Shown piece after piece: positions 12,809 to 47,152 of a stretch of 64,000 nt of DNA (within the stretch, counting starts at the first letter, position 1; each line of letters opens with the position of its first letter). This DNA is from Eutreptiella sp. 'Long Island Sound 2002' (Eukaryota > Euglenozoa > Euglenophyceae > Eutreptiales > Eutreptiaceae). The stretch spans positions 64,460,453 to 64,524,452 of the forward strand of contig OZ038389.1 in assembly GCA_964036045.1 (NCBI GenBank). Reading direction: 5' to 3'. A program made the position numbers and the translations under genes. The notes under the pieces were generated by a model. That model was not told where the DNA came from. It saw only the letters and a program-made list of their open reading frames with translations, and ran no database searches.

Positions 12809-12825
12809 CCCATCCATCAAGGAGC
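12809..12825 (+). repeat. Left 17-bp target-site duplication of the giant LINE
   Basis: CCCATCCATCAAGGAGC occurs here and again at 46881-46897, immediately after the LINE's 3' tail. A chance exact 17-bp match to that particular site within 64 kb is very unlikely. Confidence 0.85.
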
Positions 12826-15280
12826 ACCTGTACAGCCTGAGTCGCGCGCGATCGCAGCAGAGAAAAGAAAAACCAAGAAAAAAAGGCACAGCCAGCAAAA
12901 ATGAATGGCAAAGTCGTGTTTTCCGACCTCAGAAAACCCCCCACAAATTTTTACGCCGCTGTTTCGCGAGGTGGAACATGGTAGGACACTCACAGAAAAA
13001 CAACGAACACAAGAGCCGCCAAGACGGGAAAGCTGAACATTGCGTGCCCCAAAACACTTAGCAAAGTGGATGCAGTAGGAGCAGGGGACTTGTGCCCGCC
13101 CCAACACCAATAAGAAAAACAAAACAACGAGACAACATAGGGTAGGCGCCACGTGAACATGCTGGCCGCCGAAACAAGTATGTTGTACGATGCGCCACGC
13201 TGCCACACGACGAAAGGGAGCCGAGGTACGCAACGCACGAGTGAAAGGACACAACGGCCGCACCACCACCAACGAGAGGGCACGCCCGCTAACATTCCCC
13301 GCCCGCATAGGAGAAGGACGCCATGAGACAAGCAAGGTCAAGGTGTGTGAAAGCGTCAAGGGGAAGAGACCCCCCAAACGCAAAGCGCCGCACTGAAAAA
13401 CAGGGAAACCATGAAACACCATGAAACACACGCAAGAGGTATGCCCATGCACGCACACGCCATGAGAGCCGCCGCAAGCACGCCAAGGTATAAACAAGGA
13501 GACATACCTGCCGCTGAACAAACCACCGCCACGAGCACCACGCCGCCGCCCAACCGCCCACGTATGCATTCTATACTCTCTATACTCTAGGCCACCCGCA
13601 CCGAAAGAAGCATGGTATGAGGGACACCCGCACGTAACCGAAAGGAGGGAACCACACGCCACCGGAGAGCGCAGCACCGCCACCACAAACACACCCACCA
13701 CAAACCGAAGGGCACACGAAGAGCAAGAGGTATGCCCGCACACGCAAGGGTCCGACAAACGCCGCAAGCGCCGAAAGGTATGGATGTAAGAAAGTACACG
13801 CCAAGGGCCGCCACTAATGGAGACGCAAGCGAACCGTGGCGCCAACGCGCCCACCGACCAAGCAACCGCAACGAGAACCACTGCCTTCTTCTCCTATCTC
13901 ACTCTATAGGCTGCCAACGCCGAATAAAATATGGACACCGCCAAAGAACACACAAAGAGCAAAAGGCCGCCATGAGGGAATACCTAATGGGCAGCCCAAG
14001 CGGAAAGAAGTGATGGTATGAAACCGGGAAACCGCGAAACTGGGAGAAGGGAGCCACACGCCACCGGAGAGCACACACCACCGCCAGCAAACACACAAAC
14101 CACAAGCCCGAGGGCACAAAAAGAGCAAGTGGTACGCCCACACGCGCAAGCAAACAGAAGCAAGGTATGGAGAGGGGGCACAAGCCCGAGCCCGCCGCCG
14201 CAAACGACACAAGGATGGAAGGGCCAAGGACGGACTAAAAGAACGAACCGCACAACGCCGCCACACCAGCGCACCCGCCGACCGAACAAATGACATGAAA
14301 ACCGCCCTCCTCCCTCGCTCTATAGGCCATCAACACGAGAGGAAGCCGCCAACGCCAAAAAGTGGACACCGCCAACGAACACATGAAGAACAAGGGGCCG
14401 CCAACACCGCGGAACGGAACATGAGTGGTATGAGGGAATACCCAAGGGGCAGCCCAAACGGAAAGAAGTGAGGATGGTATGAGTGGTATGGATGCCCACA
14501 CGCGCAAGCATATACAAGCAAGGTATGGCAAAGGAGCACGAACCCGCCGCTGCAAACGCCACGAGGAAGGGAGGACCAAGGATGGACAACGAGAGCGAAG
14601 TACACAACGCCGCACCCGCCGAATGAGAAGGCGCGGAGGAAGCCACCCTTCTGCCCCTCTCTATAGGCCATCAACGCGGGGGAAGGCGTGGGAACACAAC
14701 AAACAGGTCTGTCATCGCAAGCGCAACACAACCGCCACCGCCACGGACAAGCACACCATGGGATGGAACGCAGGGTGAAGAGCGTGCGCACACACGTAGA
14801 CACAAGTGCAGACACAGGTATGTTACACGCCGCACGACAGAGAACGCAGCCGCAACGATCTTGGTGCCAACGTGGGTACAGTATGTTACATGGTGACCGT
14901 ACCACCCGCCGAAGGCCCACATACCCCCATCCTTCCTTTGTCTCACAGGGCCCAACAGGAGAGAAAGACGAGGACGCGGGAACTGGGACCAAGGAAGCAG
15001 GCGAAGGACCGAGACACACACCAGGGCGGAGGCAGGGAAAAAGTGCATGCCAGGGAGGAAGGCGAGCGGGCGAGGAGTAGAGGAAAGGGTAACAAGCGGC
15101 GAGACCACGAAAGAAACAGGAGGTAGCCAGCAGCCGAGCAAGGGACCCGAGCAGGGAAGGGGGAACAGCAAGCACACGGCGAGCACAACACCGCAACAAA
15201 GCCCCAGAGAGGGGGGCATCAGAGGGACAGACAAAGAGCGACACCACGCACCACGGCACGCACAGCAAAGACACCACACA
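12826..15280 (+). repeat. LINE 5' region: degenerate ~340-420 bp tandem repeats
   Basis: The sequence is rich in A, C and G and poor in T on this strand. Recurring landmarks are CTCTATAGGC at about 13900, 14320 and 14660, GCCCACACGCGCAAGC-like at about 13735, 14135 and 14490, and GAGGGAATACC with GGCAGCCCAA near 13975 and 14435. Spacing is about 340-420 bp. Minus-strand ORFs of 354 and 373 aa cross the repeats but are Cys/Leu/Val-rich, follow the composition and have no motif. I read this as the distal 5' untranslated region, because it lies inside the 17-bp duplication. Confidence 0.55.
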
Positions 15281-15350
15281 CGCCGCACAGACCCACACCC
15301 GCGCCAGCGGGCCCTGGCAGCCCGCCCAGAGGGCGGGCAGCCGGGAAGGG

Positions 15351-15361
15351 GGGGCGCCTGA
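15351..15361 (+). repeat. 11-bp TSD, left copy, of nested LINE fragment
   Basis: GGGGCGCCTGA is repeated exactly at 15725-15735, on the other side of the LINE 3' fragment. It matches the monomer start motif, so the fragment landed inside a monomer. Confidence 0.85.
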
Positions 15362-15724
15362 GGTTTGAGGTCTGGTGTTTGATTTTGCGGGTACTAGACG
15401 CCTTTCGGCCCCGGGGGGCCACCTGGTCCGGCCAGGTGATATCCTCCCCACCGGGTCCTAGTGGGGGGCCCTCCAAGACGCACCTCCTGCCTGGTGGCGG
15501 ACTCCCCCGGGTTCACGGGGCTCGGAGCCCCGTCCCTCCCTAGCTTCCCCGTTTCGCCACTCCCCGGTCAGTGCATCAATTCGCAGCCGTGGCTGCGGGC
15601 GCTTACCCACCGCGTCGCCCTTCTAATGCCTGGTCGCCCGGGGCGCCGGCGCCGCCGGGCCCGTGCTACTGGCTTGTCGCCAGTGGGAACCCCTTGGGTG
15701 GCGCGGAGGCTGCCTAGCCTAGAA
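15362..15724 (-). mobile_element. 5'-truncated copy of the LINE 3' end, nested
   Basis: These 363 bp closely match the reverse complement of 46514-46880 and the stretch 63445-63810. On the minus strand the order is GC-rich 3' region, two hairpins, GCAAAATCAAAC and a short CTCAAACC tail. An exact 11-bp duplication flanks it. A 5' truncation with a TSD is the normal product of target-primed reverse transcription, so this copy defines the LINE's 3' end independently. Confidence 0.85.
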
Positions 15725-16297
15725 GGGGCGCCTGAACGCGGACGCCCACTGCCAACCCCGTGGCTCGCAACCCTCCGCAGGGCACACGATCCACGGGGCC
15801 AGCGCAGGGCCCCCACACCCGCACACCCGCGCCCACAGCACATGGGTAGCGGACCCCGACAGCCCGCCCGGAGGGCGGGCAGTCGGGGGAGGGGGAGCGC
15901 CTGACCCCAGACGCCCCCCACAACGGCGGAAGGCGGCCCCCCCGGGGACGCCCTTCTGCCACCCCTACAGCGCGCAACGCCGGCCCGCAAGGGCGCACGC
16001 TGTGGGGCGGGTGCCGGGTCCCCATGCCCGCACCATCTGCACCCGGGACACACGGGTCGCAAAACCCCGGCTGCCCGCCCCAGAGGACAGGCGGCCGGGG
16101 AAGGGACAGCGCCTGACACCAGACGCCCCTCACAACAGTGGCAGGCCACCCCCCCTGGGGACGGCCCCGCACCACCCCCACGGCACGCAGCCCCCAAAGG
16201 GCGTGCAAGCCAAGGAGACAGTGTTGGGCCCCCACGCCCGCACACCCGCGCCCACAGCACGTGGGTGGCGGACCCCGACAGCCCGCCCGCAGGGCGG

Positions 16298-16826
16298 TGT
16301 AAGTGCGGCTAGCCCCATCTGCTCAGATTTTCAGACATTCTGCCCAGATTGGCTACATTTTGGTCATTTCCTTTGCTTCGGCGGAATTGCCGCCTCGCAG
16401 CTCAGTCTCAGGATATTTCCTATATATTTCTGATATGCCGGATTTGATTCCGCGGTCCATTCCCCGTAAATCCGCCGCGTTCCGCTATTTTAGCTGGAAT
16501 CGCCATTTGCCGCTGACGCGCGCTCGCGGGCCAGATCGGCCAAACATTTTTACATAATTGGATTATTTAAATCTTTTCAGACAGTTTTGGACACTCAGAT
16601 GTATTTAGAATAATCCGCATCAATTTTCTTCATAGACTGGGATTTTCTGCCGGACCACAATCAGCATGGACCTTGCTTCAGTTGTTGCTGCTCTCGCCTC
16701 CGTTGGTGTCCGAGTATCCGGTTCCACCCCCAATAGCAACGTTCAGGGAGACCTCTCGCGTGCCTGCCCCACTGGTCTTGCCGGCCCCGAGCCCTCCGGC
16801 ACCATCAACGACCCAGGGCAGCACTT
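16298..16826 (+). repeat. Left 529-bp inverted repeat (5' region plus gag start)
   Basis: Begins TGTAAGTGCGGCTAGCCCCA. It includes 368 bp before the gag ATG and the first ~160 bp of gag. I count about seven differences from the inverted copy over the first 371 bp, roughly 98% identity. The TG start and the position upstream of gag suggest it contains the 5' LTR or promoter. Confidence 0.8.
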
Positions 16827-19701
16827 TCATGGTAGCAGAGGCTACCTGAATGTTATTCCTTTGGTGTCCCAACCACAGTTAGCTCCCCAGTACGGCCCCG
16901 TAGACTCCGCCACCTCCGGGGACGTAATGATTACGCTGCCGTGGTGCTGTGCGAACGAGGCCTTGAGAGGAATGCCTTGCGCAAGCCCAAATTGCCCAAG
17001 AAGGGCACAAATCAGCAGCTGTGGAGGCCCAGATTACCATCAAGATCCCAGTCGAAATTGGCCATCAAGCAGCTGGAATCTCCCAGCCTACGCCGATGGC
17101 AACGCTCCGGTGGAGCTTACGGGCCTGGCAGGTACTAATACTCCTTACCAATGTCCACATTTTGAGACCATCGACGCCGACATTGACGACATTGAGATGG
17201 GTGGTCCAGGTGAGGTACCTACCTATAATCGACCAGCCAATTGGGCACAATGGGACAACCATTTGTCTTCAGAAGTGACCCGTAACCTTGAGGCGCTTGA
17301 GGCCCTTTGTCTATTAGCCACGTCTAAGCTGATAGGACAAGAAAGAATCGCCTCTGATTTTTTATTCGAATATTTTTTCCTCCTTCAAGAAGAAATTAAT
17401 ACCAGGATGTGGTGGCGTTCCCAAGAAGATGACTCTTTTGCCATTTTTTTGCAGATCTGGGAAGCAAGTCCCTTCCCGAAGGAGAAGACCAAGGCACCTG
17501 TTGCCGGGCCCTCCGCCCCTCATCCCTCTGTTTCCATCCGCGACGATCTAGCCGCCGCGGTTGAGGAAGGAATTTTAGAGGCAGCCAGGCAGGCAAGCCT
17601 AGAAATTAAGGCTGAAGGAGCTCCCCAAGTGGACTCCTGGCTGCGAACCACTGAGATTAGCGGTCCGACAGCCTGCTCAGGCCCTTCAGGACACGGTATG
17701 TACTGTCCTGCCGACTGCTCTTGCAGATTACAGCGAGATACTGAGCTCCAATTGCTCAAAGATCAAATGCAATACATCATTCAGACGCTGGGAATTAAAG
17801 ATCTTTTCAAGACACACATGCGGTCTGAGGGCGCATCATCGGTGGAACAAACAACAGAACCGTCGGAGGAGGCGACAGAAATTTTTTCGATTGCTCCTTC
17901 GGTGGACTCTAAGACCACCGACGCAAGGATCAGCAGGACTAAGCTAAAGGAAAGGGTTACAATCTCTCGATCTCAGAGTAAGTCGGCGAAGGCTAGGACT
18001 GAGGCTCAGAATGCCAAGCGAACTGACTCCCGTACTGCCCTTCCTGCTGCTGATTCCAATGCATTAGCCCAGATGTTGCTCGCCCAGACCCTCGCCGGAG
18101 CTGGTGTGGCTAATGATGCCGCCAAGGTGTCTGCCATTACGGCCGGTGTTGGGCTGGATTCACTCCTTAATCCTACCTCATTGCGACTTCGTCAGGTTGC
18201 CAAGCAACCGAAGTATAATGGGAACCCCAGACGTTGGCCTCAGTTCCAACGGGAATTTAAACTGTGGGTTAAGACTCAAAAGCTCCAGGATGATCAGTTC
18301 CTGATGGCCCTCTTGGACTGCCTTGAGGGAGCGCCGGCCAACACTTGGCTTAGGACCTGGAGTGATCGTGAGGATTCAAGTTCCCCTCTTACCTTTGATG
18401 AGGTGTGGGAACAGTTGGAGGTACGTGGATCCCGGCTGCCAGAGGACCATTACCACCAGATGTTGAAGAATTTTCCTTCGTTCTCGCGATTAATCTTGCA
18501 CGAAGTGCAAGACAAGAGACAGCGCTTCTGGAATCTCGTAGAAGAATCTCAACATTCAGGCGAAAAATTTTCTAGTGCCGAGCTGAAAAATCTGATTTTT
18601 GACAAGATCCCCTCCGAAACTGCCGCCACCCTTCGGAATAAACAGTCCGAAGAAAAGGTCAAGACCTGGTGGGCGGAGGTCGATGGCTTCGATGCCTCGG
18701 CCAACAGGTTTTCCGTCAGGGAATCACTTCAAAAGTGTTCCCCCACGTCGTTTACCAAGGTGAAATTCACTGAAAACACGTGGAAAATCAAGTTTAATGA
18801 ACACGAGGATCGGGACTTGTTTGTCCAAGTCCTCAACAGGGGAGTAAGTTTCCACGGCCATCGCCTGAAGGCCAGGAACTGGGTGTTTCCGTTCACCCCG
18901 CAGGAACTGTGGGAAGAGGTTGAGCGGCTCGCTGACGCCGCCAATCAAAATTTCCATGAGGGTCTTGGGGGAAACAAGAATACCCAGCAAAACACCCAAA
19001 ATGGGGCCCAAAAGGGCAACAAAAAGGTGAATGACACCCGGAATGTTCGGGATCATTGTAGCATCTGCCTTCTTTTAGGTTCTACGAACCGAGCTAAGAC
19101 GCATTCTACTGGTAATCACCGATGGTCTGCTTACGATCACAAGGTGATTGGTGAAAATGTCAGTAATTCGCAGAATTCAGACAGGAATGACAGACAGGTG
19201 CATGGTGCAAAGGGGGGAAAGGGTAATCCGAACCCCTCCGGTGGAAACAAAAATACTGGAGGCCCTGGCGGGTCCCAAGGCAAAGGAAATCGGACTCCAT
19301 CCGGTTCCGGTGGGCAGCCAAACGGTCAGACAAGTCCCAATGGCAACGCCGGAGGCGGAAATCGAAATCCAGGCCAAACCCCTCAATCCGGTACAAACAA
19401 AGGAAATGCTCCAGGATCACAGGGTAAGGGTAAGGGAAATCCTTCAGGAACCCTCTTCTCTGGTAAGGGCAGAGGGCGTGGCGACGGTGGTGGCCCATCA
19501 TCCGGCGGCCGTGGCTGTGGACGTGGAAAGGGCAACCATCGTGTGGATCAGGTCTCAGGTGCAGATCAGGTGTCCGATGCGGATCGAGATTATGTCGAAA
19601 ATGCCCTGAATCCAGCAGATGATCCGTTCCAAGATGAGTGGATCGACGAATCAGGCTGTGTCCACAATGTTAACGCAGCCACTGGAGGTCAGAACGCCTA
19701 G
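16666..19701 (+). CDS. gag: Ty3/gypsy Gag polyprotein
   Basis: This 1011-aa ORF starts at the ATG that is also conserved in the inverted copy. The N-terminal ~500 residues are poorly conserved-looking and Pro/Ser-rich. A retrotransposon-gag-like capsid region lies at about residues 510-660 (KYNGNPRRWPQFQREF, then LEGAPANTWLRTW). A Cys/His cluster, CSIC followed by H-x5-H, is near residue 800. The tail (about 850-960) is Gly/Asn-rich, then Arg-Gly-rich, and should bind RNA. Twice the length of a typical gypsy Gag. It ends GCC-TAG, and the frame continues open into the protease, so the usual product may be Gag alone with a minority Gag-PR readthrough product. Confidence 0.85.
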   Translation: MDLASVVAALASVGVRVSGSTPNSNVQGDLSRACPTGLAGPEPSGTINDPGQHFHGSRGYLNVIPLVSQPQLAPQYGPVDSATSGDVMITLPWCCANEALRGMPCASPNCPRRAQISSCGGPDYHQDPSRNWPSSSWNLPAYADGNAPVELTGLAGTNTPYQCPHFETIDADIDDIEMGGPGEVPTYNRPANWAQWDNHLSSEVTRNLEALEALCLLATSKLIGQERIASDFLFEYFFLLQEEINTRMWWRSQEDDSFAIFLQIWEASPFPKEKTKAPVAGPSAPHPSVSIRDDLAAAVEEGILEAARQASLEIKAEGAPQVDSWLRTTEISGPTACSGPSGHGMYCPADCSCRLQRDTELQLLKDQMQYIIQTLGIKDLFKTHMRSEGASSVEQTTEPSEEATEIFSIAPSVDSKTTDARISRTKLKERVTISRSQSKSAKARTEAQNAKRTDSRTALPAADSNALAQMLLAQTLAGAGVANDAAKVSAITAGVGLDSLLNPTSLRLRQVAKQPKYNGNPRRWPQFQREFKLWVKTQKLQDDQFLMALLDCLEGAPANTWLRTWSDREDSSSPLTFDEVWEQLEVRGSRLPEDHYHQMLKNFPSFSRLILHEVQDKRQRFWNLVEESQHSGEKFSSAELKNLIFDKIPSETAATLRNKQSEEKVKTWWAEVDGFDASANRFSVRESLQKCSPTSFTKVKFTENTWKIKFNEHEDRDLFVQVLNRGVSFHGHRLKARNWVFPFTPQELWEEVERLADAANQNFHEGLGGNKNTQQNTQNGAQKGNKKVNDTRNVRDHCSICLLLGSTNRAKTHSTGNHRWSAYDHKVIGENVSNSQNSDRNDRQVHGAKGGKGNPNPSGGNKNTGGPGGSQGKGNRTPSGSGGQPNGQTSPNGNAGGGNRNPGQTPQSGTNKGNAPGSQGKGKGNPSGTLFSGKGRGRGDGGGPSSGGRGCGRGKGNHRVDQVSGADQVSDADRDYVENALNPADDPFQDEWIDESGCVHNVNAATGGQNA

Positions 19702-19737
19702 GGGAGCCACGAAAATCGCCCCTCCCCAGGCGATTTC
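19699..19737 (+). promoter_or_regulatory. UAG with a potential downstream pseudoknot (readthrough signal)
   Basis: GGGGAG (19701-19706, sharing the G of UAG) is complementary to CTCCCC (19722-19727). The intervening AAATCGCC (19713-19720) is complementary to GGCGATTT (19729-19736). The two stems cross, as in an H-type pseudoknot. Loop 3 would be a single A unless the ends of stem 1 stay open, so geometry is tight. Known gammaretroviral gag-pol readthrough uses UAG plus a pseudoknot a few bases downstream. Confidence 0.55.
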
Positions 19738-20334
19738 AGGCATGATCCCCAGATTCCAGATCGACCATTACTTGATGTAGGGTCGCTTGTCTCCTCTCCC
19801 CTGGATCCGGCAGCGGTTCCTTCTGTTGTAGTGGACGAGGTTGGTGTACAGTCCAAGCACAGGGCTCGTCAGTTTGTCACAAAGCTGTGGGTCTCTGATT
19901 GCAAGGGAAATTTCCACCTCGCCACTTGTTTGTGTGACAATGGATCAGAGGTAAATCTCCAATCCAATTCATTCTTACCCGACGACTGCGTGTTTGAGTC
20001 GCCTCATCCTGTTACCCTCGAGGGAGTTTCTGGACATTCTCTCGCAGGTGGGCAACGCGGTTGTTATATATCAACTCATTTGGTCGCTCAAGACCTTTGG
20101 GAAGAGCAAAATGTGGAAGAAGTTGTCCTTAAGGATGACTACTTCTATCGTGCCGACATAAAGTATGACCTTTATTTGGGCCATCCTTGGCTTCGCAAGA
20201 ACAGGGTAGCGCCCGTAGGTCATCGTCGTTGTTTTTTGCTGGATTCAGGTCCCTTGGAGCGTCCTGAATTTCGTTTTTTGCACGCAGGGTTTAAAAGTGC
20301 AGAAGAATTTTTGAAGCAAAAAGTTACACCATAA
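19702..20334 (+). CDS. Retropepsin-like protease domain
   Basis: The frame is continuous with gag after the UAG; an internal ATG at 19831 would give 167 aa. The strand-turn sequence CDNGSEVNL (Asp codon at 19935-19937) occupies the place of the retropepsin D-[ST]-G-[AS] motif, with Asn instead of Thr or Ser. The later segment DLYLGHPWLRK matches the conserved LG-x-x-WL region of gypsy proteases. It would cleave the polyprotein. It ends in TAA (20332-20334), again followed by an open continuation in the same frame. The Asn variant could weaken activity or be a family trait. Confidence 0.65.
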   Translation, partial: GSHENRPSPGDFRHDPQIPDRPLLDVGSLVSSPLDPAAVPSVVVDEVGVQSKHRARQFVTKLWVSDCKGNFHLATCLCDNGSEVNLQSNSFLPDDCVFESPHPVTLEGVSGHSLAGGQRGCYISTHLVAQDLWEEQNVEEVVLKDDYFYRADIKYDLYLGHPWLRKNRVAPVGHRRCFLLDSGPLERPEFRFLHAGFKSAEEFLKQKVTP

Positions 20335-21459
20335 TTTGGTGAAGATGTCACCATTGCAGAGGTGAATGGGTGTGCCGATTACTCCCAAGAGTTAGAATGT
20401 CCTCGTAGGGACTCCCAGCCACGACGCCCTTCGCGCTGGCACTCTTCATCCTACAGAGTTGTCGACAAATGGCGCGATGCAATTTGTGAATATTTTCATG
20501 AACACCATTCCTTTTGGCCACAGTATGATGCCTTTGCTAACCGTATGAACAAGCGCTTCGACAAGCACTTTAGCGACGCTTGGACCCATAAATGGGACAA
20601 GAAGTTGTGGATTAATCCTCCGTTTCACTTAATCCAGCAGGTCATCCACAAAATCAAGCAAGATAAAACCCAGGCAATTTTAGTTGTGCCCTTGTGGGAC
20701 GACAAGCCTTGGTTTCAGGAATTACAAGACATTTGTGTAGATTACATCGAACTTCCCAGGAAGATTAAGCTGTATGCCAGGGACGACACAGGTCCCCTGC
20801 CACAGCGGTCCTGGAGTTCGCTTGCATTCCTGGTGGATGGAAAGCTTTCTGACTCTAATTCTGCTGATTCTGGTACTGATTCTTGTGTTGGGTCTGAATC
20901 TGAGGTTGAGCGTGGTACTGATGATGAATCTATTTTTTCTGATTTTTGTCCGTCAGATACCCAAGGTGATCCAACGTCCAATGGATCCGCCTCGTCTCCC
21001 TCTTCCCCAATACGATCGACATCGAAAAGAACCTTCAGTGCACGGGCGAAGAAAAATTCCAAATCGCGCCGCAAATTCAGAGTTTTTTATGAAAAACCCC
21101 CTGTGGAAGCTTTCATGGATCCTTTCGAGGAGCTGGATCACGAAGAGAATCTCTGGGATTTCGACACAAGACCCACCTATCTTCAAGAGGCAGTTGATAC
21201 GGACCTGTTTAGGGACATCCGTAAGAAGATTCTTCCTGCCAAAGCCGAAGAAGTCGCCAAAGTTTTTTCGACAGTAATTCCTGGCGATCAGGTGGACACT
21301 GAATTGTGTTCCAAGTCAAGAGAAAAGATTTTTGAGGAACGGAAGGACACAACCCTTTCAGGGAAGTTGATCAAAGACCCCCCTGTCCGTGGACAGTTCG
21401 GTGAAGCCTTCATCGAGCTTCGTGAAGGGTACAAGGCAAAAAAAACAGCGCCCTTATGA
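20335..21459 (+). CDS. Dam-methyltransferase-like domain and linker to RT
   Basis: In phase after the protease stop; the first ATG is at 20362 (365 aa). Residues about 55-125 read DAFANRMNKRF, then KLWINPPFHL (NPPF at 20614-20625), then ILVVPLWDDKPWFQEL. This order (D-x-F-A, NPPF, hydrophobic strand, VP-x-W, PWF) matches the Dam-like module known from phages and from DIRS retrotransposons. NPPF is the catalytic motif IV of N6-adenine methyltransferases. A very acidic Ser/Asp stretch follows (about 168-220), then the usual gypsy pre-RT segment ending VRGQFGEAFIELREGYKAKK. A placement between protease and RT is uncommon. Catalysis is unproven. Confidence 0.65.
   Translation, partial: FGEDVTIAEVNGCADYSQELECPRRDSQPRRPSRWHSSSYRVVDKWRDAICEYFHEHHSFWPQYDAFANRMNKRFDKHFSDAWTHKWDKKLWINPPFHLIQQVIHKIKQDKTQAILVVPLWDDKPWFQELQDICVDYIELPRKIKLYARDDTGPLPQRSWSSLAFLVDGKLSDSNSADSGTDSCVGSESEVERGTDDESIFSDFCPSDTQGDPTSNGSASSPSSPIRSTSKRTFSARAKKNSKSRRKFRVFYEKPPVEAFMDPFEELDHEENLWDFDTRPTYLQEAVDTDLFRDIRKKILPAKAEEVAKVFSTVIPGDQVDTELCSKSREKIFEERKDTTLSGKLIKDPPVRGQFGEAFIELREGYKAKKTAPL
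21430..21447 (+). other. Poly-A run at the frame change into RT
   Basis: The Dam-like frame and the RT frame overlap around a run of eight A (near 21439-21446). Protein similarity switches here by +1 (or -2). It may be a programmed slip or a homopolymer indel in this copy or the assembly. Confidence 0.5.
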
Positions 21460-27037: not shown

Positions 27038-27083
27038 CTCCCCCTCCAAAAACACACTGGGATGTGTCGCTACGTCAACGAAG

Positions 27084-30260: not shown

Positions 30261-30332
30261 CCCCTACCGACGCCCCACCGCGCCCATAACACGTGCACCG
30301 GCCACGGGAAATCCGCACCCCATCCCCTGCTC

Positions 30333-35596: not shown

Positions 35597-37495
35597 GTGG
35601 ACCTCCCCGTCTTCCAGGCGGTCCTCAGCCGCCACGTGCCCCGGGTCCCTGAAGGGGCCTGGCCCCAAGTCCAGCAGTACTCCATGCAGGACCTGCAGTC
35701 CGCCCTGGACAAGGCCGATGGCAAGGCCCCGGGTCCCAACCACGTGGAGGCCCGTTTCATCAATGCCCTCCCGGCACCTGTCCAGTGGCTCCTGGTCCAC
35801 TCCTACCGGGCCATCCTCCGCGGCGCCCCGCCGCCCATGCACTGGAGGGACGCGCACATCTGGCTCAGCCCCAAAGTGCCGGGCTCCGCCCGACTGGACG
35901 ACTACAGGCCCATAGCCCTGGGCCAGCTGGACATGAAGCTGCTCACGGGCCCCCTCACCCAGCGCATCATGGAAGTGCTCACACGACACGGAGTGGTCAG
36001 CGACTGGCAACACGGGGCCCTCCCCGGCTCCAACACCGCCCCCCCCCTGTTCATGGCGCAGCGGCAGCTCCAGCGGGGAAGGCCCAACTACGTCTTCTCC
36101 TTCGGCGCCCGCAAGGTCTTCGGCACCGCCCCGCACGGCGCCCTCCACCTCATCCTTCGCCACCTCTCCGTGCCGCCGGAGGTAATCGACCTCCTGCTCT
36201 TCCTCCACACATGCGCCAGGTTGCGCATCGTCACCGCGCACGGGCGGACACAGCCCGTCCACATGCTGCGTGGCGTCCGGCAGGGCAACCCTGAAAGCCC
36301 CCTGCTGTACGCGCTCCTCCTGGAGCCCCTGCTCAGGGCCCCGGGGCACCGTCTGCGTTTGCCCTGAGAGGCTGAACAGGGCCTCATCCAGGCCTACATA
36401 GACGACCTGCTTGTGGTTGCCCACACGCTGCAGCACTTCGTCGAGGGCGTGGAAGCGATGGCCGCGTACTTGGGGATGATGGGCTTGGAGCTCAACCCCC
36501 GCAAGTGCGCCATGGCCAACAGGGAGGGGGTCCCGGGCCTGCAACTGCGCCTCTGTCCCCACCTGGAAAACCCATGGCACTGGGTGCCGGCGGCGGACCC
36601 CGTCCCCTACCTGGGACTCCAGCTGCAGCCGGACGGGGAGTCCTCCCTGCAGCGCAAACACCGCCTGCGCCTGGCGGCGGTGCACCACTGGTGCCTCAAC
36701 ACCCTCGCACCGCCGAAAGTCGTGCAGGACGTCATCCTGGCGATCCTAGGGGGAGTGACGCAGTATGTCGCCCCCTTCATCGCCGACGACTCCGACACCG
36801 CGCGCCACCTGGACCACATCACGGTCCAGGTCGCGAAAGACAGGGCGCGATACTCCTTCGACGCCTCGCGGGACAGCCTGCAGGATGACCGGACCCTGGA
36901 GCTCACGCGGGTGCCAACGGGGTGCCAGCAGACAGCGGTGGCCCTCGTTGGCTCATCCGTCCACAACCGCTCAACCTCCGTGCGCGTTGAGGTCACCAGG
37001 ATGTTCTGGGAAGTCGCCGGCGCGCACGGCATATGCCCTGAGGTGCACTACCCCGTCCCGGAATTCGCAACCCTGGCGGGGGGCGACTGGGTCCACCGCA
37101 TACCCCGGGCCCTGGCCGCCCTGGGCGTGGGGCTCTACAACCCCATCGCGTGCCCCGGGGCGGCCCACGTCCAACTACAGTCCCCGCCGGGCAACATCGT
37201 CACGCTGCGCACCGCCAAGCTACGACACCGCGACACGTGCCGCCTGACGGTGCCGCACACGACGCCGTGGCATGGGCAGCACGGGCCGCACCACCCCTTC
37301 CCCGACAATGACAACCCGTGGCCGACAGCTCTGCGGGAGTGCCTCCACCAGTGCGCCGATGAACCCCTCCACTATTGCCGCCGTGAGCAGGAGCCCACCA
37401 ACCACCCCGGGTGGCGCGACGCTTTGATCCACCTCTCCCACACCACCGGCACGCGGGGGCCCCGACTGAGACTCGTCCACCCCCACGAGGGCTAA
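35597..37495 (+). pseudogene. LINE reverse transcriptase
   Basis: RT signatures: DGKAPGPNHVEARF (motif 0), RLDDYRPIAL (motif 2), GALPGSNTAPPLFM, then motif A as FGARKVFGTAPHGAL, motif B LRGVRQGNPESPLLYALLLEPLL, catalytic YIDD at 36395-36406, and VPYLGLQL. A TGA at 36365-36367 splits it between motifs B and C. In motif A the catalytic Asp is replaced by Gly (GGC at 36104-36106), and the second Asp (usually FD) is also Gly (36122-36124). The protein would not polymerise DNA. The C-terminal ~250 residues after YLG resemble the LINE thumb and connection. Confidence 0.85.
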
Positions 37496-38750
37496 GAAGG
37501 ACGCCCACACCGGCCCACGGGTGACCCCGGACGGCATGCACCTTCACGTCGGGGGCTACCGCCGTCGGGGCAGCCTATCGCCCCCCACGCAGGGGACGGC
37601 ATACCACCCGCCGGCGGCCCTCCTGTACATCGTCCGCGACGTACTCGCGGACGGTGAGCACCAAGAGCCTAACGCGGATGTGGCGTGGCCCGAACCCCTG
37701 TGCCCACGGTTCCACGCGCCGACGCTGATATGGTTGGTGACTACGGACGACCAGTGCACCCGGGCGACAGAGCAAGCGCAGCTCCGGACCCAGTGGGTGA
37801 TAGTGCAGGTGGGGGCAGGCCAGCCCAGGACCCGCCGGCTCCCCCGCGGCAACGCCCTGCTGGTAGTTACGGAAGTGCCGCACGACCCACACATGGCGGT
37901 GCACGCGCTGAAGAACCAACCGGAGGACACGGGACACCTGGTGGTCCACCAGCGCGGAGGCCCGGCATGGCTCAGGGAACAGGTAACGGCGCTCCGGTCC
38001 TGGGCAAGCAAGATCGCTGGGGCAGAGGTCCGACTACACGACCATAGACCAACTGACCCCCAGCCACCCCGACGTCAGGTGGCACTCCGCCGACCTCAAC
38101 GCGGGGTGGCTCAGCCCCGGCGGGTACTACTGGATCCCGGAGGCCTGGGGCAACACCTCCTCCGATGCGTTGGGGGGCGGACCCTGCAGGCACGCCACCA
38201 GCGTCGCTCTCGCCGCCGACCTCACCCGCACGTCGGCGGTGGCCATCTCGGGCGTGGTGCCCGACGGAGAGGGGGTGGCCGCCTCCCTCCCCCTGCAATA
38301 CGACGCCCACCGGCCGTGGGTCCATACGGTGGACGCCGAAGTCATCCTCCACCTCCTGCGACACGCGGATCGCGAGCGGGCCACGGGAGTCCCCGCGGGA
38401 GCGGCAAAGGTGGTCACCCAGATGCCCCTACGATGGCCCCAGGACGGCCTGCGTGCGCGAGGGCAGCACGCCGAACACCCGTTCTGGTATGCCCGAGCCA
38501 CCTCCCACCACAGCGACGCCCTACTACACAAGGCGGACTGGGCGGCGTCCCAGGACACCGTCCTACAGAACACGCCCCTGGGCCCCAGCCACGCCCAGCT
38601 CAGAGTCGCCGGTCATGACGGCCACCTCGACCTATGGCCCCCCACGATGCTAACGCTCGCCGCGGTCGCCCAGCGGGCACAGACGGACCATGCGCTGACG
38701 CACCGAGGACACACACCTCTGGGCGCAGCCCACGCCACAGCGTATGTCCA
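37496..38750 (+). pseudogene. LINE ORF2 region after RT, possible RNase H remnant
   Basis: Two frames carry protein-like sequence: 37521-~38045, then ~38046-38750 one frame on. In the second, SVALAADLTRTSAVAISGVV followed by VDAEVILHLLRHAD has the spacing of an RNase H core (Asp in strand 1, Ala-Glu at the helix), but no DS motif follows. RNase H is known in some LINE clades. I consider it weak. No other domain is recognised. Confidence 0.35.
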
Positions 38751-39326
38751 CGCCCGGGAACCACCGCGACGGGCACCGACCACTGGGCGCTGCGGGCCAG
38801 GGACGGCCACACGCCGGTGCAACGCAGGCTCCGTGTCCGCAAGGAGCGGCTCTCTGGCGTCGCCGTTCTCCCGCAGCCGTGCCTCCTCTGCGGCGGCCCG
38901 GAGGAGACCCCGGTGCACATGCACGTGGGCTGCGCCCACTCACGGCTCCTCTGGCCTGACTACCGCCAAGCGGTGAAGGAGGCGGCCCGCCACCTCCTGC
39001 CTGGGGAGGAGACTCTATGGGTGGCCTCGCGGCGCTCCGAGGGCGCCGCATGGACAGAAGTCCTCTGCTCTGGGCTGGTGCCCGAGGCGGCGGAGGCGCA
39101 GCTCCGCGCCATAGCCCGCTACGACCCGCCGGGAGGGACCTCCATGGACAATTCTCTCCACCACATGCTCCGGCTGGGTGATTTCGCAAGGGAGCTCCGC
39201 AACCACCGGCTGGAGCAACTCCTCCGCAAGCCCCTAAGCGCAGCGGCCCGGGTGCACCGATGGCTCAATGCGGCAGAGGGCAGCTGCCCCCCCCCCCTCC
39301 CCCGCGCCCTGACAAGGACTTCGTAG
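38751..39326 (+). pseudogene. LINE ORF2 C-terminal CCHC knuckle
   Basis: After another frame change the sequence reads HTPVQRRLRVRKERL, then CLLCGGPEETPVHMHVGC, spaced C-x2-C-x8-H-x4-C. That is the classic C-terminal zinc knuckle of LINE ORF2 proteins, near 38880-38934. A helical tail follows up to the stop at 39324-39326. In most LINEs the protein would end soon after this; here more ORFs follow. Confidence 0.75.
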
Positions 39327-40665
39327 CCTCCCTCTGTGTCGTGAATGGCACTCTGGAGCGCCTGCCGCAAGAGGACCCCCACCCGTACCGGGACCTCCCA
39401 GGGGGTTTCTCGGAGCACCTACAAGACGCCCTCTTCCCACGGTGGATCATCGGGCGCGGCTCCATGACCGCATGGGAGGCCCGAATGGTGGGCGAGGAGC
39501 GGGCGAGCGAATGGGGCCGGTGTTGCGCCGCCACGCACGCCCCGGAGACCCCTGCACAACGGTATGCCGCCATCCTGCTCGAGGGGTGGGGGCTGCACAC
39601 CCAGCCGCGGCCCACCATGATCTGCGGGGCGGGCCCTGACCACCCGTGGGACACTTCGGCAAAGGAATGGCTACAGGCGGCCCCGGAGCCACAAGCGGGG
39701 TGGAGTGGGGACGTGTCCTCGCTCATCCGAGCGCCTGTTCCCCCCCGCATTGTCCACCACACCGCCAACGTGCTCCGAGCCAGGGAGGTACACACATGGG
39801 GACGCGACGCGGCCACCATCCGGTGGCTCCCCCCGGAGGGCGGAGCTGCCCGGCTCACCGTGGCGCACTTCAAAACTGGGGGACCTGTGTACGACGACGC
39901 CCTGTCCCGGCTGGGCGACATTCTGGGACCCTTACTCCTCATGCTCCCCACCGGCCTTGCAACCGCGCTGCGCCAGGAGCTAGACAGCTGCGACGGGCTG
40001 CGGGTAGGGTGGGAGGCAGTCCCGGACGGCAGCCTACTGGCCCTCCTCCACCGGGACGCCGCGGACGCGTGCCAGTGGCACACGCTGGTGCCCCATCTCA
40101 CCAGGCGCCACGTGTATATGGCAACCCCCCCCGGGGACAGCCCCGGCCGGCGTGGGATGACCTCATCGCCACCTTCCACGACCAGGGGGTCCTCCCCAAC
40201 GACACGTGGCAGGAGGTCCGGCAGAAGACGCTCGGCAGGGACTACCGGCGCCGCGTTCGCACCCGCCTGCTGGAGCTCCGGGACCCCCTCTGCCAGAAGT
40301 TGAACGACCTCTGGCTCCGCCGTCTCGGCCCCTGGTCGCTGCCCTCCCACCTCCCACACACCTGCCACCTCTGCGGTGCATGCGACACGGTATCCACCAA
40401 CACGCTGACGGGCGCCAACAGGTGCGCGCAGTGCTCCCAGGTGGCCGTGTGCCCTGGCCCGAACCTCGCGCGGGCCCGCACAGGCGCAAGGAAGAGGAGG
40501 CTTTGCACCGGCGCATCAGGGGAGCACACGCCCCCTCACAACAGCGCGCGGGCCCCGCGGGCGCCGCCCTCCTTTGGATCCACGTGCACCTGCGGGACCC
40601 CACCTCCGTCACGCACCTGTCGCTCGTGTTCGCGCCCTAACTGCCACTTGCTGCTGTGCTTTTGA
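39260..40665 (+). pseudogene. Extra LINE ORF after the knuckle, with zinc-ribbon-like Cys pairs
   Basis: An open frame 39260-~40150 (Trp, His and Leu-rich, globular-looking) continues after one shift in 39646-40665. The second part has a helical basic stretch (DDLIATFHDQGVLPNDTWQE, then DYRRRVRTRLLELRDPL). It then has two Cys pairs, CHLCGACD and CAQC, 24 residues apart, resembling a zinc ribbon. Function unknown. It could be the C-terminal half of a very long ORF2 or a separate ORF. Confidence 0.45.
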
Positions 40666-41924
40666 GAGCCCACAGCACCATGCCTCGCCGACGGGGGGAC
40701 GGGCCGGGGCACGTCAGAGCCCGCCGCCGAGCGCAGGAGGCGGCCGTCCGGGGCCTGGTAGCGGACGCGGTGACAGAGGCGCACGAGGCGCACGCTGCCG
40801 CCCAGCACGACCCGGCGGGCAGTGCGAGGGCATTCCTCAGCGAGGCCGCCCTCCCGGCGGTCCGCGCCCTGAACAGGGCGGGGGCCCCTACGCTGCTCCC
40901 GGCAATGCACCGGATCGTGAACGCTATCCGGCCAGGGCTCATCAGCCCGAAGGCGGCCCTCTACGGGCACTGGATGCAGTGGCGCACGTCCAACCGGTCA
41001 TGCCGGCCCCTGTGCATGGGGGACACCATGCGCCTGACGGGCGCGGGGTCTGCCATGTCCCTTCACAGCAGCGCCCCAGCCCTGCTGCACGCCCTCAGGA
41101 CGCGCTGCCCCGGGGACACGGCCCCGTACCTGAATCAGGCGCGGGCCACACACCCGGGAAGAGTCTCCGAGTTGGACGCGGCACTCCACCTTCTACATCC
41201 GCCGGACGGGGACCTGGAGGTGGGCGAAATCACGGTGTTCGTGGAGGGCGCGGACGAGGCGCCCACCCGCCCCCGCCCGACCAACCCGGTGTACGACGGC
41301 GCCAGGCCGACCCCCCCGTACGCCGTCATGTGCGAGCCGTTCCCCAGGGAGCCCACCTGGATCCCGCCTTCCCGCCGGCGACGCACGCACCCCGCGGATG
41401 GGCCAACCGGAACCTGTCCCCCTGCCCCTCCAGGACCAGGGGTGCCCACCACAGGGGGCAGGTCCTCTGGCAAGAGCGCCTGGGCACCCCCCTGCTCCTC
41501 CTCGTCGTCGCGACCCGCGGGGACCCCGAGCAGGTCCTGGGGATCACCCCCACCCACCCGTACGGGGCAGCGCCCGTACCCCGCCCCCCCCTCCCGGCGC
41601 CCGCGGCGCGGGACGGGGTACACCTTCCTGCGAGCACAGGAGGTCACCGCCGTTACGGGGGTCCACCTAGTGCGGCTCCCCTCGGCACCACCGGACGACC
41701 CCCGAGGGCCCAGGGCCCTGAGCCCCGCCCCAGACCGGGAGCTGTGGCGCGACGTGTGGGACGCGTGGCTCATCCGCCTCCCGCCCCAATGCCGATTAAT
41801 GGCCACCGGCTCCCGCCCGCACGGCGCTAACGCCACCGCCGGGCCCCCCTCCCCTCCTCCCCTCCCCCCTGCAAAGCACTACACAGCGCCGCCCACAGCA
41901 CAACACGGATGCGGCGGGAGGTAG
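40656..41924 (+). CDS. LINE-associated ORF, unknown function
   Basis: 422 aa. The N-terminus is strongly basic (MPRRRGDGPGHVRARRRAQE), then Ala-rich helices. A structured part has PLCMGDTMRLTGAGSAMSLH and LEVGEITVFVEGADEAPTRP. Residues about 240-320 look out of phase: a neighbouring frame reads better there (VLWQERLGTPLLLLVVATRG, then DPEQVLGITPTHPYGAAPV). The original frame returns at GYTFLRAQEVTAVTGVHLVR. Two compensating indels would explain this. No known domain. Confidence 0.4.
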   Translation: MLLRAHSTMPRRRGDGPGHVRARRRAQEAAVRGLVADAVTEAHEAHAAAQHDPAGSARAFLSEAALPAVRALNRAGAPTLLPAMHRIVNAIRPGLISPKAALYGHWMQWRTSNRSCRPLCMGDTMRLTGAGSAMSLHSSAPALLHALRTRCPGDTAPYLNQARATHPGRVSELDAALHLLHPPDGDLEVGEITVFVEGADEAPTRPRPTNPVYDGARPTPPYAVMCEPFPREPTWIPPSRRRRTHPADGPTGTCPPAPPGPGVPTTGGRSSGKSAWAPPCSSSSSRPAGTPSRSWGSPPPTRTGQRPYPAPPSRRPRRGTGYTFLRAQEVTAVTGVHLVRLPSAPPDDPRGPRALSPAPDRELWRDVWDAWLIRLPPQCRLMATGSRPHGANATAGPPSPPPLPPAKHYTAPPTAQHGCGGR

Positions 41925-43973
41925 TGGGGAGGGCGCGCCTGCCGCCACGCATGCCTACCAGAATAACAGTGATGTTGGACTCCGATGGCTCCCCCCAGCG
42001 GGACAACCGCCACCACCGCCGGTCCCGCTCCCGCTCCCCCGGGTCCCCGGGATGCGCGCAGGAGACCCTCGCGCAGCGCGAGGAGCGGCGGCTGGCGGAG
42101 GCAGCGGTGCCGGTGGGGCCGCCGGCTGGGCAGCCCCGGGCAGCCTCCGCCGACACCAGGCCGACGACCTGGGGACCCGCGCCGGCCGAGGAGACCGCCC
42201 CCGCCGCCCAGGCTGCGAGCCATACCGCCCCGCCTTCAGAGGGGGCCCCGGGCGCACAGGTGGTTGAGACCGCGGCCCCAGCAAGCCGCACCGCGTCCCT
42301 GACCGCGGCCCCCGGCGCGCCGCCAGCGCAGGGGGTGGCCCCGGCGCCGGGCCCAGGCGCCTCGCCGGGGGCCACCGCGGCCGCAGAGGAGAGCGGGAAG
42401 AGTGCACAAGTAATTGAGACCGCGGCCCCGGCAGGCCGCGCCACCGCCCCGGCCGGCCACGCCGCGGCCCCCGGCAAGCCCCGGGCCCAGGGGGACGGAC
42501 CCCGCGCGGGCCTCGGGCGTCTTGCCGGGAGCCGCCGCAGCCGCAGCGGGTGGCAGGGAGGGCGCGAAGTACCGCGCCCACACCGACCCCAGCCCCACCC
42601 ACACCAGCCCCCCCAAGACGTTCCCCCCCAAGGCCACCTTCCCCACGGGGCGGACGCGGCACGTCCGCCCCCCGGCGCCCGAGCGTTCGCCGCCGGGCGT
42701 CACGCTGCCGCAGCTGCGGCGGCAACAGGACGCCCGGCGCGTGATCCGGGAGGGGGGGGACGGCGCACAGGCGGGGCAGGGTGCCTGGCACGGGAGCCCG
42801 GAGCGGGGGACAGGAGGCGACAGGGGGAGTGCACAGGGACACACACAGGGGGCAGGCCAGGGCGCACACGCCAAGGAGCGAGGGCGAAGGCGCGGGCACG
42901 GTGCCGAGGCCAGCAGCAGCGGAGGGGGGCAGAGCGCGGGCAGCGGACGGCAAGACGCGGGGCAAGGAGCAGGGAAAGGACAAGGGCATGGGAAGGACAT
43001 GCAGGGGCGCGAGCAGGGCGCCAAGGCGGGCGGCCACGGAGCGCATGGAGTGGAACGGGGCGCGGTCGGCGAGCGTGGGCACAGCCAAGGGCATGGACAC
43101 GGGCACGGGAAGGGTACGGGCGCCGGCAGTGCAAGCCAGGGCGCAGGTGACGGAGGGTGGAACCCACGGCGCGGGCAGGGGGACAAAGGCGTAGGGGCCG
43201 GGAGGGACGCAAGGGCAAGGACAAGGGCGCCGTGGGCCCATGCGGACAGACATTGTGGGGCGCGGGAGCCAAGGGGGGAGGACGGAGCGAAAGAAGGGGG
43301 ACGGGGAGCGGGGCGCCCCCGCAGCCGGACGTGCGGCCGGTGCGGTGCATCCCCCCCGGCATCCAGCAAATGCCAGCGCACCACACCCAACACCACCACC
43401 ACCACCACGCCCACGTCTACAACATTGACCCCGAAGCCGGTGACCTCATCCCCCCCCAACCCCCCCGACCCCAGCACCAGCCGGCCCCCCCCGCGCCGAG
43501 GGCGGAGCCTGCGCGGATGGCTGCTGCCTCGGCGGCGGTGGGGCGGGGCGCGGCGCCGGCGCCGCAGGCACAGGGGCCGCAGGGGGAGCCGGCGCGGGGG
43601 GCAGAGGGGACCCGGCCCTGGGACCGGGACTTGGGCACGGTCCCGGACCCCCTGGGGGATCAGGCTCTCCCCCTCGTGGTGGAAGTGTACGGCTGGCTGA
43701 GCTGGGCCTGCTCGGGGACCACCAGGGGGATGAGGAACCGGCCCTTCGATGCCGTGCTACTCCGGAGGGACGGGGGGAACCAGGAGGTGCCCCCGGGGGG
43801 TAGGCAGCCCTGGAGGACCCCGAGAGGGTCCTCAGGGCGGTGATTCGGGCGGCGGGGTCCGACAGGGAGCCGACGTGGCTGGCTTTCCTGGAGGGGGGGG
43901 CGGTGCTCCGCATCACAGATGCGGATGCCAACAACTGGCTCCCCCGGGCTTTGCGCAACGCCCTCACCCACTA
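41909..43973 (+). pseudogene. Last LINE ORF: RS-, Ala/Pro-, Gly- and His-rich protein
   Basis: It opens with RITVMLDSDGSPQRDNRHHR then SRSRSPGSPG, an RS-like segment. It continues through an Ala/Pro-rich stretch with two related repeats (VVETAAPASRTA and VIETAAPAGRAT), into Gly/Gln/His-rich sequence, then HHTQHHHHHHAHV. It ends with a more structured part (ALPLVVEVYGWLSWA, then RAVIRAAGSDREPTWLAFLE) before a TAG near 43971. At least three frame changes are needed (about 42500, 43320 and 43800). Low complexity makes the frames uncertain. RNA binding is a guess from composition only. Confidence 0.35.
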
Positions 43974-46775
43974 GCGCTACCACCGGCGGAACCCGCCGCC
44001 GCCCAAGCCCCAGCCCCCACACAAGCGACGGCGCAGGTGACGGCCGGGCCCCGCCGGCCCAGGCAATGAGCGCGAGGGGGGGGGGGGCGTTGGGATGCCC
44101 CCCCCAACAGAGCCGGGCCCCCCGACCCACACCCCCCCTTCGTACGGCGCGGGGAAGGGGCGCGCGCCACCTCCAGTGGGGGACAGGACGGGGGCAACGA
44201 GCGTGAGGGGAGGCCCACTGCCCCGCAGCCCGCTAACCGCTGACCGCTGACCCGAGTCGCCGCCCCCAGCACTAGCCAGCCCTGCCCCCCCCCCCCCCCG
44301 GCCGGCCGATGCCGCGCGGCGACAGCGAGGAGGGCAGGGGGCCCGAGCGAGGACCTGCACGGGGGCCTGGCGCCCGGAGGGCGGAGGGGGGCGGGGGAAG
44401 GGTGCGCCCCCCCAGTTGGCGGCCGGCCCCCCGGGACCAGAACCACCGGGCCACTCCCCCGCAGCAGTCTTGGGGCGGCGCCAGGGGACCAGGGCGGGAC
44501 GGAGGGGATCCCCCCCTCCCCCCCACCCCTCCCCCTGCCTCTCCCCCGCCCCCCCGGCCCGTACGCGGAGGCCGACCGGAAGGGCGGCGGCCCCAAGCCC
44601 CCCCGAGAGGGCCGCGGCACCCAAGGGGGGGACGCCACAGCAGCGGCAAGCGCAGCCGCGCGCCAAGCGCCCCCTGTCGGCCGCCCACTCACTCCCGCAT
44701 TAGCCTCTGCCGACCGGCGGCTCTGCGCCGACGCCGTGGGCCGCGGCCGAACGGCGGCACCCAGGAGTGCGCAGACAAAGCGGCCCGCCTCGGTGCCCAC
44801 CCGGGGAAAACGGGAGAGGGCAGATTGCGGCAAAGAGACCTCCCCCCCCCCCCCCCGCCACACTGACCCGCCGGCGGCCGGCCAAGCCGCACCCAGCGCC
44901 CACGGCTGCCCGGCAACCCTGGCTGAATGTGTATACCCAGGGGGGTGCCCAAGGGGACAGGGACGAGGGCCATGGACCAACCCCCCGGAACAGGGGGGCA
45001 GGGGACGGCGGCGCCCCCCCCCCCTCTCCCCCCCCCCTCCCCCCCCGGCCTGCGGGCCGCGGGGGCGCCGGCGCTCCACCCCACCCGAGGCAGAGGGGGT
45101 GTCGCCCCTCCCCCAGGAGGGACCGCGACGCCTGGGGGGGGGGGCGCAGCTGGATCCGCACGCCGCGCGCCCCCGCCGCCCCCGCCGCCTGATCCCGCGG
45201 GGGTCGCGACAGGCGGGCGAACCCACACCAGCGCAAAAGAGCGACGCACGGACCACGCCCGGGGGCGGCACGCGACAACGAACTGGAGCAGTATGGGGGC
45301 CGCGCCCCCCATGATCTGAGCGTCGCCGGTAACGCCCGCATTGTTGCCCGCCCAGGGAAGGCAGGGGACGAGCGGACGCAGAGCGGCCCCCCGGCCGCCC
45401 GGCCCCCCGGCCAGCCCTACGGGGGGGCGGCTCACGGGCCGGCCCTCCCCCCCCCACCCCCCCTCCCACCAGGATGGCCCGCCGGCAGCGGACCGCACCC
45501 GGCGCCCGGGGCCGCCCCACGACCCCGACCGAGCGCGGAAAGGGGGACAGGGCAGAAAGCCGCAGACCGCCTCCCCCGGAGGGGGGAGGTGGGGAGCCAC
45601 GGCGCGACCCCCCCCTGTCCCCCCAGCCCCCGACCGACCCACAAGCCACAGGGGCGACGGCCCCCCAGCCCACCGAGGCGGGGAGATGATACCCCCTCCC
45701 CCCAGCTGGGCCGCGACGCCCGGGAGGGAGGCCGGAGCAGGGCCCGCCTCCACGCCCCAGCCGCCTGCTCTTGCAGGAGCCGCGATGGGCAAGGGAACCC
45801 GCGCTAGCGCACAAGGGCGCCACACTGATCGCGGCCAAAGACAGCAAGCGAGCACGAACCGGAAAGGCAGAGAGACGGGCTGAGGCAAGGCGACCCCCCG
45901 CTCCACTGGCCCCCCCTGCCGCACAGTCGGGGAGAGCGGCGCACAGGCCGCACCCCCCCCCACCCCACCCCCCGACGCTGGAACGCCCCAGACGCGCGGA
46001 CCCACCCCACAGGGGAAACACAGCCCCAAGCCAGGTAGAGGAGAAACGGGACCGGCCCCGCCCCCCCCCCCAAGCAAACCAAACGGGGCACGGGACCGGG
46101 GCAGGACACGCGGAGGGGCACGGACCGCGTTGAACAGCCCTACCAGCGCCCAGCACCGGGACCGCGCGAGGTGCGGGCGCCACACCAACCAGGGGGGGGG
46201 GGGCGCGGACGCCGCGGGAGCACAAGCGCGCACACACACAAAGGGCACGCGGGGAATACCAGAAGGGCAACCGGACCGAGCCCGCGGAACGCACAGACCG
46301 CATGGAATGGCGTACCAGCGAGCAAGGATGAGGGACACCCGGACGGGACGGCCCGCCACAAACAGCGCGGGGAACGCGGGGCGGGAAGGGGTAAACGGGG
46401 AAGACACGACACCAGGCACCAGCCCAAGCCCCCCGAACCGGCCGCGAGCGCCGCGCACACACAACCAGGGCACTGCAACCGCCAAGGCAGTAGTGGCGCG
46501 CCGCGCCACGCATCAGCCCGGTGGCTACGCAGCCTCCGCGCCAGCACACGGGGGTCCCACTGGCGACAAGCCAGTAGCACGGGCCCGGCGGCGCCGGCGC
46601 CCCGGGCGACCACACATCAGGGGGGCGACGCAGTGGGTAAGCGCCTGCAGCTACGGCTGCTAAGTAACGCACTGACCGGGGAGTGGCGAAATGGGGAAGC
46701 CGGGGAGGGACGGGGCTCCGAGCCCTGTGAACCCGGGGGACTCCCCCACCAGGCAGAAGGTGCGTCATGACGGGC

Positions 46776-46823
46776 CCCCCACTAGGTCCCGGTGGGGAGG
46801 ATATCACCTGGCCCAACCAGGCG
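46776..46823 (+). other. Paired 3' hairpins conserved in three LINE copies
   Basis: First stem CCCCAC with GTGGGG. Second stem CACCTGG with CCAGGCG (CCAGGTG in the other two copies, loop TCGGG or TCCGG). They lie 55-105 nt before the tail. LINE RTs commonly recognise such 3' structures. Confidence 0.65.
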
Positions 46824-46854
46824 CCCCCCCGGGGCCGAAAGGCGTCTAGTACCC

Positions 46855-46880
46855 GCAAAATCAAGCCTCAAACCTCAAAT
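46855..46880 (+). repeat. LINE 3' tail of TCAAACC-like heptamers
   Basis: GCAAAATCAAG then CCTCAAACCTCAAAT. The copies at 15362 and 63445 end in similar TCAAACC repeats on their coding strand. Short tandem tails replace poly-A in several LINE clades. Confidence 0.75.
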
Positions 46881-46897
46881 CCCATCCATCAAGGAGC
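46881..46897 (+). repeat. Right 17-bp target-site duplication of the giant LINE
   Basis: CCCATCCATCAAGGAGC, identical to 12809-12825. The following sequence (CCTCACTGAC) is unrelated to the LINE. Confidence 0.85.
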
Positions 46898-47152
46898 CCT
46901 CACTGACTTGCAACTAACCTAACAGACTCAAAACAACACTACACAATCACAGTGAAATCTTCTCCCAACAGGAGGAGCCAATGGCCCTGGGGGGGTTGCG
47001 CGGGGTACCTCTCGTGATGCCAAACACGCACGCACAGGTACTCACGCCCACGCACACCCTGGCTAGCATAAGTAGACACAAGCAAACAACTGCCAGCACA
47101 TTGAGACCGACACCATCAGAGGGTCGTCTCAATAATCCTTCTGGGATCAAAT

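Follow-up and report, generated by a model that had tools for sequence, protein, structure and literature searches.

A dead LINE copy of about 23 kb, very probably a single insertion, between two copies of a 17-bp target site

The window, that is, the whole stretch of 64 kb analysed here, lies at C12:64460453-64524452 of the host genome; positions written with the prefix w are window positions. Two copies of a 17-bp word enclose a LINE with four ORFs and two nested insertions, and a neighbouring copy of the same family runs off the right end. The features are the following (TSD, target-site duplication):

12809..12825, + strand: left TSD copy, 17 bp exact, perhaps 18–19 bp originally; four empty sites carry one copy
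12826..15273, + strand: non-coding 5' region, T-poor and A-rich; the other copies listed begin at w12835-12846
15274..15360, + strand: first piece of a 419-bp array, 80% identical to 29788-29878
15362..15724, − strand: nested insertion, a 5'-truncated tail of the same LINE family, with an 11-bp TSD (15351-15361 / 15725-15735) recognised by eye
15736..16297, + strand: second piece of the 419-bp array, from self-comparison of the window
16298..27081, + strand: nested gypsy block that entered later and does not belong to the LINE; its RT and RNase H pass the cut-off and its integrase narrowly misses it; inverted 535-bp arms
27082..30180, + strand: non-coding bulk of the 419-bp tandem array; continues into ORF1 also in a copy on C8
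30241..33981, + strand: ORF1, frameshifted; a CCCH and a C2H2-like motif near its end, by eye; same end stop in the C8 copy
33982..40665, + strand: ORF2, frameshifted, with an uncertain end (about 40.4 to 40.67 kb); AP endonuclease, RT, weak zf-RVT and a C-terminal zinc-ribbon-like motif
40680..41924, + strand: ORF3, about 410 aa in relatives, frameshifted in the window copy
41925..43973, + strand: ORF4, low-complexity, with a weak coding signal and an RS-rich stretch at its start
43974..46880, + strand: non-coding 3' region, ending in a CCTCAAA-type tail
46881..46897, + strand: right TSD copy, a match to the 17-mer and to the empty sites
63445..64000, − strand: 3' end of a neighbouring 5'-truncated copy that runs 7.4 kb past the window and is flanked, within a 127-bp satellite, by a 21-bp TSD

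The two TSD copies are 34,055 bp apart. Subtraction of the nested tail with one copy of its TSD (375 bp) and of the gypsy block (10,784 bp) leaves 22,896 bp for the LINE, in agreement with the figure of about 22.9 kb that a preliminary description of this locus had reached by removing the same two insertions. The start of the 419-bp array has to be moved to about 15274. The arms of the gypsy block (16292-16826 and 26509-27043) are 98% identical over their 535 bp, lie in inverted orientation and contain the start of its first ORF; self-comparison of the window showed no direct LTR pair for this block, which could be a rearranged or autointegrated element. In base composition, the sense strand of the LINE (12826-15273 and 27082-46880) is poor in T and rich in GC, whether coding or not, in a genome of roughly 50% GC. 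The fraction of T is 0.09, 0.07, 0.12 and 0.06 in the four LINE parts versus 0.24 in the gypsy block and the flanks. The best left change-point in composition, at 12701 (12684-12730), lies outside the LINE, displaced from the junction by about 100 bp, since the target flank is itself T-poor there.

Codon statistics, trained on homologous parts of the same LINE, indicate that 30241 to about 43973 is coding, with shifts of frame and a signal that is weak or absent at several steps, mainly in ORF4; the array and the 3' region gave no coding signal. ORF1 has no Pfam match. Within ORF2, an AP endonuclease (PF03372, 34.1 bits against a cut-off of 24.5) precedes the RT (PF00078, 32.7 bits in 35549-36364 and 65.4 bits when read through), which is followed by a zf-RVT match of 17.9 bits, below its cut-off of 27.5. 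The order given in the preliminary description, i.e., repetitive 5' DNA, a CCCH-type ORF1, AP endonuclease, RT, extra ORFs and a long 3' region, was thus found again, the CCCH assignment being made by eye. The window copy is dead: ORF2 contains a TGA at 36365 as well as further stops and frameshifts, and the RT motif reads FSFGARKVFG where relatives have FSFDARKAFD, so that the catalytic Asp is changed. A total of 395 RT relatives were found. The 120 listed are 69–94% identical, and 12 of them retain both RT motifs in strict form; many others are fragments. Against the PDB, R2-type RTs (5.7e-15) rank ahead of human L1 (2e-8), which is not decisive for the clade, and the AP endonuclease piece has no match there. 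No RT relatives were found by tblastn in viral_contigs and genome_contigs.

Downstream of ORF2, ORF3 recurs as a protein of about 410 aa. Its search yielded 623 matches among 8,000 scored candidates, and 51 of the 120 listed, the window's own included, are 400–416 aa long; three of the clusters listed have 358, 327 and 103 members. One protein (P0122) aligns from w39860 through ORF3 and two (P0137 and P0203) continue from ORF3 into ORF4. An automatic tally counted no protein spanning ORF2-ORF3 and one spanning ORF3-ORF4, low values that are explained by its tight limits. Structure prediction for ORF3 from an alignment of 48 proteins reached a mean pLDDT of 33. As to RNA structure, in a common fold of three tails, not one of the 105 predicted pairs has both partners changed, and a conserved tail structure is therefore unsupported. 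Rfam and tRNA scans of the 64-kb window returned nothing, and a search of 46200-46900 against Rfam with E values up to 1 gave no match and no hammerhead ribozyme.

The ends of this element are marked by the 17-bp word, an exact pair of which had been claimed to lie after the LINE tail and 34 kb upstream. Both copies are present. With up to two mismatches allowed, the 17-mer has two matches in the window against 0.02 expected, the identity between them stops at 17 bp on either side, and the right copy directly adjoins the LINE tail. In 34 kb of random DNA, any one 17-mer would be expected to occur exactly about 2e-6 times. As a control, 2,000 random starts were taken from 49.6-59.4 kb: for 1,928 of them no word longer than 11 bases recurred in the 40 kb upstream, and 61 had a recurring word of at least 17; a 290-bp repeat with 97% identity (47779-48064 / 55562-55851) would yield about as many. 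In repeat-rich DNA the word pair alone is thus not decisive, and the matter is settled by the genome-wide count and the empty sites rather than by this control. In the entire host genome (2,280,300,865 bp in 2,205 contigs) the exact 17-mer occurs six times, two of these being the window's own, while a control pattern has no exact copy in the same search. The 17-mer is accordingly no common repeat, as its proposed role as an insertion mark demands.

The other four occurrences (L001, L002, L003 and L006) are paralogous empty sites that lack the insert; the preliminary description had suggested looking for allelic ones with a single 17-mer. In each, homology to the left flank (90–95%) runs directly into homology to the right flank (92–95%) across one 17-mer, and when the window's flanks are joined, their alignment to each of the four is gap-free at the junction; in L006, eight bases are missing up to three bases before the 17-mer. 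Positions 12826-46880 thus constitute the content of one insertion site, and the existence of four homologous empty sites identifies the target as a dispersed repeat. The two bases after the 17-mer are AC in three of the four empty sites and AG in one, AC after the left copy and CC after the right one, a pattern from which the original TSD may have measured 18–19 bp rather than 17. Pieces of the target repeat lie at 10082-12827, 46881-47152 and 55849-57107, broken by further insertions. Elsewhere in the surroundings, 47153-47777 and 48905-49530 are the two copies of a 626-bp direct repeat, 97% identical, which lies just ahead of a second, chromodomain-bearing gypsy pol (49505-51907), and the three plus-strand frames of 3600-12802 have no Pfam match.

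The 5' end can be compared among copies. A DNA search of the host genome with 12826-13425 gave 1,493 first-look candidates, of which 40, one being the window itself, were scored and listed; by design this list takes in only copies with the 5' region and none that start near 30260. Among the 39 others (89–94% identical), 38 begin at query positions 10–21, i.e., w12835-12846, and one at query position 79 (w12904). The 5' boundary claimed at 12826 is therefore nearly reproduced, but most of the other listed copies begin at w12841-12846, 15–20 nt inside the window junction. Eighteen of the 39 lie in clusters with near-identical scores on C22 (18.8-20.6 Mb), C23 (11.0-16.1 Mb) and C26 (19.0-21.9 Mb), and such near-identical clustered copies are not independent; the clusters are perhaps amplified blocks or centromeric regions. 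All 21 listed matches outside the clusters, on nine contigs, begin at w12835-12846. When two pieces of the 5' region were translated on the minus strand and used as protein queries, 48 matches emerged among 8,000 scored candidates; in 33 of the 48 the array precedes the 5' region in the same protein, and 13 cover 12.8-13.9 kb. Seven of these 13 (P0243, P0244, P0247, P0250, P0255, P0260 and P0270) exit the LINE at about w12835-12860, as judged by reading, P0249 exits earlier, at about w12955, and five end within the LINE or no more than 12 residues past the last match. When nine protein tails were compared, leaving aside P0260, whose flank is the 127-bp satellite, they shared nothing beyond the break but the final residues of the LINE, a single weak match of 28% excepted.

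Two further copies show the order of the parts. The copy on C8 begins with w12841-15273, a 3.7-kb array and ORF1 to w30807; an 11.5-kb non-matching block separates this from w30803-33988 of ORF1 and ORF2 to w34380, and a second such block, of 11.1 kb, from w34376-37291 of ORF2, where the stretch read ends. Its RT motifs are FSFDARKAFD and YIDDLL, the stop between ORF1 and ORF2 is that of the window copy, and its frames are broken by stops too. The right-hand neighbour matches w46879 to w39124 on the minus strand. Its 3' region has diverged (overlapping matches of 59–68%) and w44458-39124 forms a single match of 79%; its 21-bp TSD is in phase with the satellite unit. Jointly, the two copies cover the window LINE except w37292-39123. 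The preliminary description had called for copies with the parts in order, and these two provide it from the 5' region through array and ORF1 to the RT and from w39124 to w46879, but both are incomplete, each further copy read being either broken (C8, by the two 11-kb blocks) or 5'-truncated (the neighbour). The 240 kb to the right of the window contain no other match to LINE parts longer than 120 bp. The 127-bp satellite, at 60182-63442 and again, past the right end of the window, at about W71368-81700, is the landing site of at least two LINE copies, the neighbour and, from its flank, that of P0260.

By the features tested, the element is classed as an APE-type LINE of unusual size and gene content. 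TSD lengths vary across the family copies (17, 11 and 21 bp), the nested tail and the right-hand neighbour are 5'-truncated copies with a common 3' end, and self-comparison found no direct repeat linking the 5' and 3' ends of the LINE, hence no long terminal repeats. LINEs usually measure 4–8 kb. At about 22.9 kb, roughly threefold the common length, with two further ORFs, an ORF1 and ORF2 of about twice the usual length, a 6-kb leader with an array and a 2.9-kb 3' region, the element is unlike the L1 group of plants and green algae. In mouse L1, tandem 5' monomers stand ahead of ORF1; the present element likewise has tandem units ahead of ORF1, but its 419-bp units lie behind a further T-poor region of 2.4 kb, and a promoter role would be an analogy. 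Resemblances to the L1 group, that is, APE-type LINEs with a zf-RVT end, Zepp-like elements included, are the AP endonuclease followed by an RT, the variable TSDs and the 5' truncation (PMC8226300). A zf-RVT-like end may also be shared, the match here staying below cut-off, and the likeness is one of features rather than of an RT tree. Keyword searches of one literature library found no LINE of such size, which is weak evidence of absence. In the parts consulted, a review of giant transposons (PMC6431247) deals with gypsy-like elements of planarians, with Terminons and with a number of DNA elements, and names no giant LINE. Among these, the enlarged CACTA elements of Chondrus (16–20 kb, 4–5 ORFs) are comparable in their size, their extra ORFs and their algal host, but they are DNA transposons whereas the present element is a retrotransposon (PMC6431247).

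How should the whole be read? We consider, with a probability of roughly 0.93, that 12826-46880 is one dead copy of an APE-type LINE of about 22.9 kb (34.1 kb with the two later nested insertions) that spread by target-primed reverse transcription. A shorter LINE of at most 16.6 kb, starting just before ORF1, could have inserted into or next to a 419-bp satellite and T-poor repeat of separate origin, the 17-mer pair being a coincidence or another mark. The leader is indeed non-coding and repetitive, 61 of the 2,000 starts in the control have a recurrence of at least 17 bases, and 5' truncation is observed in the family. However, the empty sites fix both boundaries, leader, array and ORF1 follow in the same order in the C8 copy, and the 5' ends of other copies fall at the same place, which makes this account very improbable. 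Coincidence and a separate satellite were rejected on these three grounds, a refutation that holds as far as two copies go. Copies starting just before ORF1, which the preliminary description had named as contrary evidence, did not emerge from a probe confined to the 5' region, and the C8 copy joins leader, array, ORF1 and RT; 5'-truncated copies do occur in the family. Equally little credit is due to a composite, in which read-through or template switching in a single ancestor fused LINE cDNA with upstream DNA or another RNA and the product was then multiplied as a unit, segmental duplication being one conceivable route. The 18 clustered matches with near-identical scores would suit such a history, but the 21 outside the clusters have the common 5' end as well, and the flanks beyond it differ among the nine protein tails apart from the shared residues and weak match already mentioned.

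The least probable reading is a giant Penelope-like element of the Terminon type. As described in part of PMC6431247, Terminons are Penelope-like elements of up to 40 kb that are without an endonuclease and attach to telomeres; they share with the present element an oversized RT element of similar size class, accessory ORFs and 5'-truncated copies (PMC6431247), and the tail here contains telomere-like units. Against this stand the AP endonuclease, the LINE-type RT relatives, insertions in the interior with TSDs and the lack of any Rfam match in the window, on which grounds this identity was rejected. A single large LINE insertion is what the preliminary description had proposed from the 17-bp duplication, and the empty sites and the recurring 5' end bear this out.

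On the reading as one large LINE, the ORF2 endonuclease would nick the target, the RT would prime at the 3' end of the LINE RNA, and a staggered second cut would give rise to the TSD, while an early stop of reverse transcription would leave 5'-truncated copies. The LINE RNA probably starts at or near w12841-12846, so that a non-coding leader of about 6.2 kb with the 419-bp array would be copied along. By analogy with the mouse L1 monomers, the array may act as a multi-unit internal promoter, ORF1 could be the RNA-binding partner, and the products of ORF3 and ORF4 are presumably required by the LINE.

A wider proposal, which we advance tentatively and at somewhat less than even odds, is that the element represents a lineage of giant LINEs with four ORFs and may be the largest LINE known. 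Full-length copying of its 23-kb RNA, with the 6-kb repetitive leader, would have been frequent enough for many complete 5' ends to remain, and ORF3 and ORF4 would add functions known from no LINE, e.g., in RNA packaging or RT processivity. The giant retroelements that we found in print are LTR or Penelope-like elements, and annotation based on short reads would probably have overlooked a giant LINE. A 23-kb LINE with many 5'-complete copies raises the size reached by target-primed reverse transcription and would provide a natural test of RT processivity, with two unknown proteins on offer.
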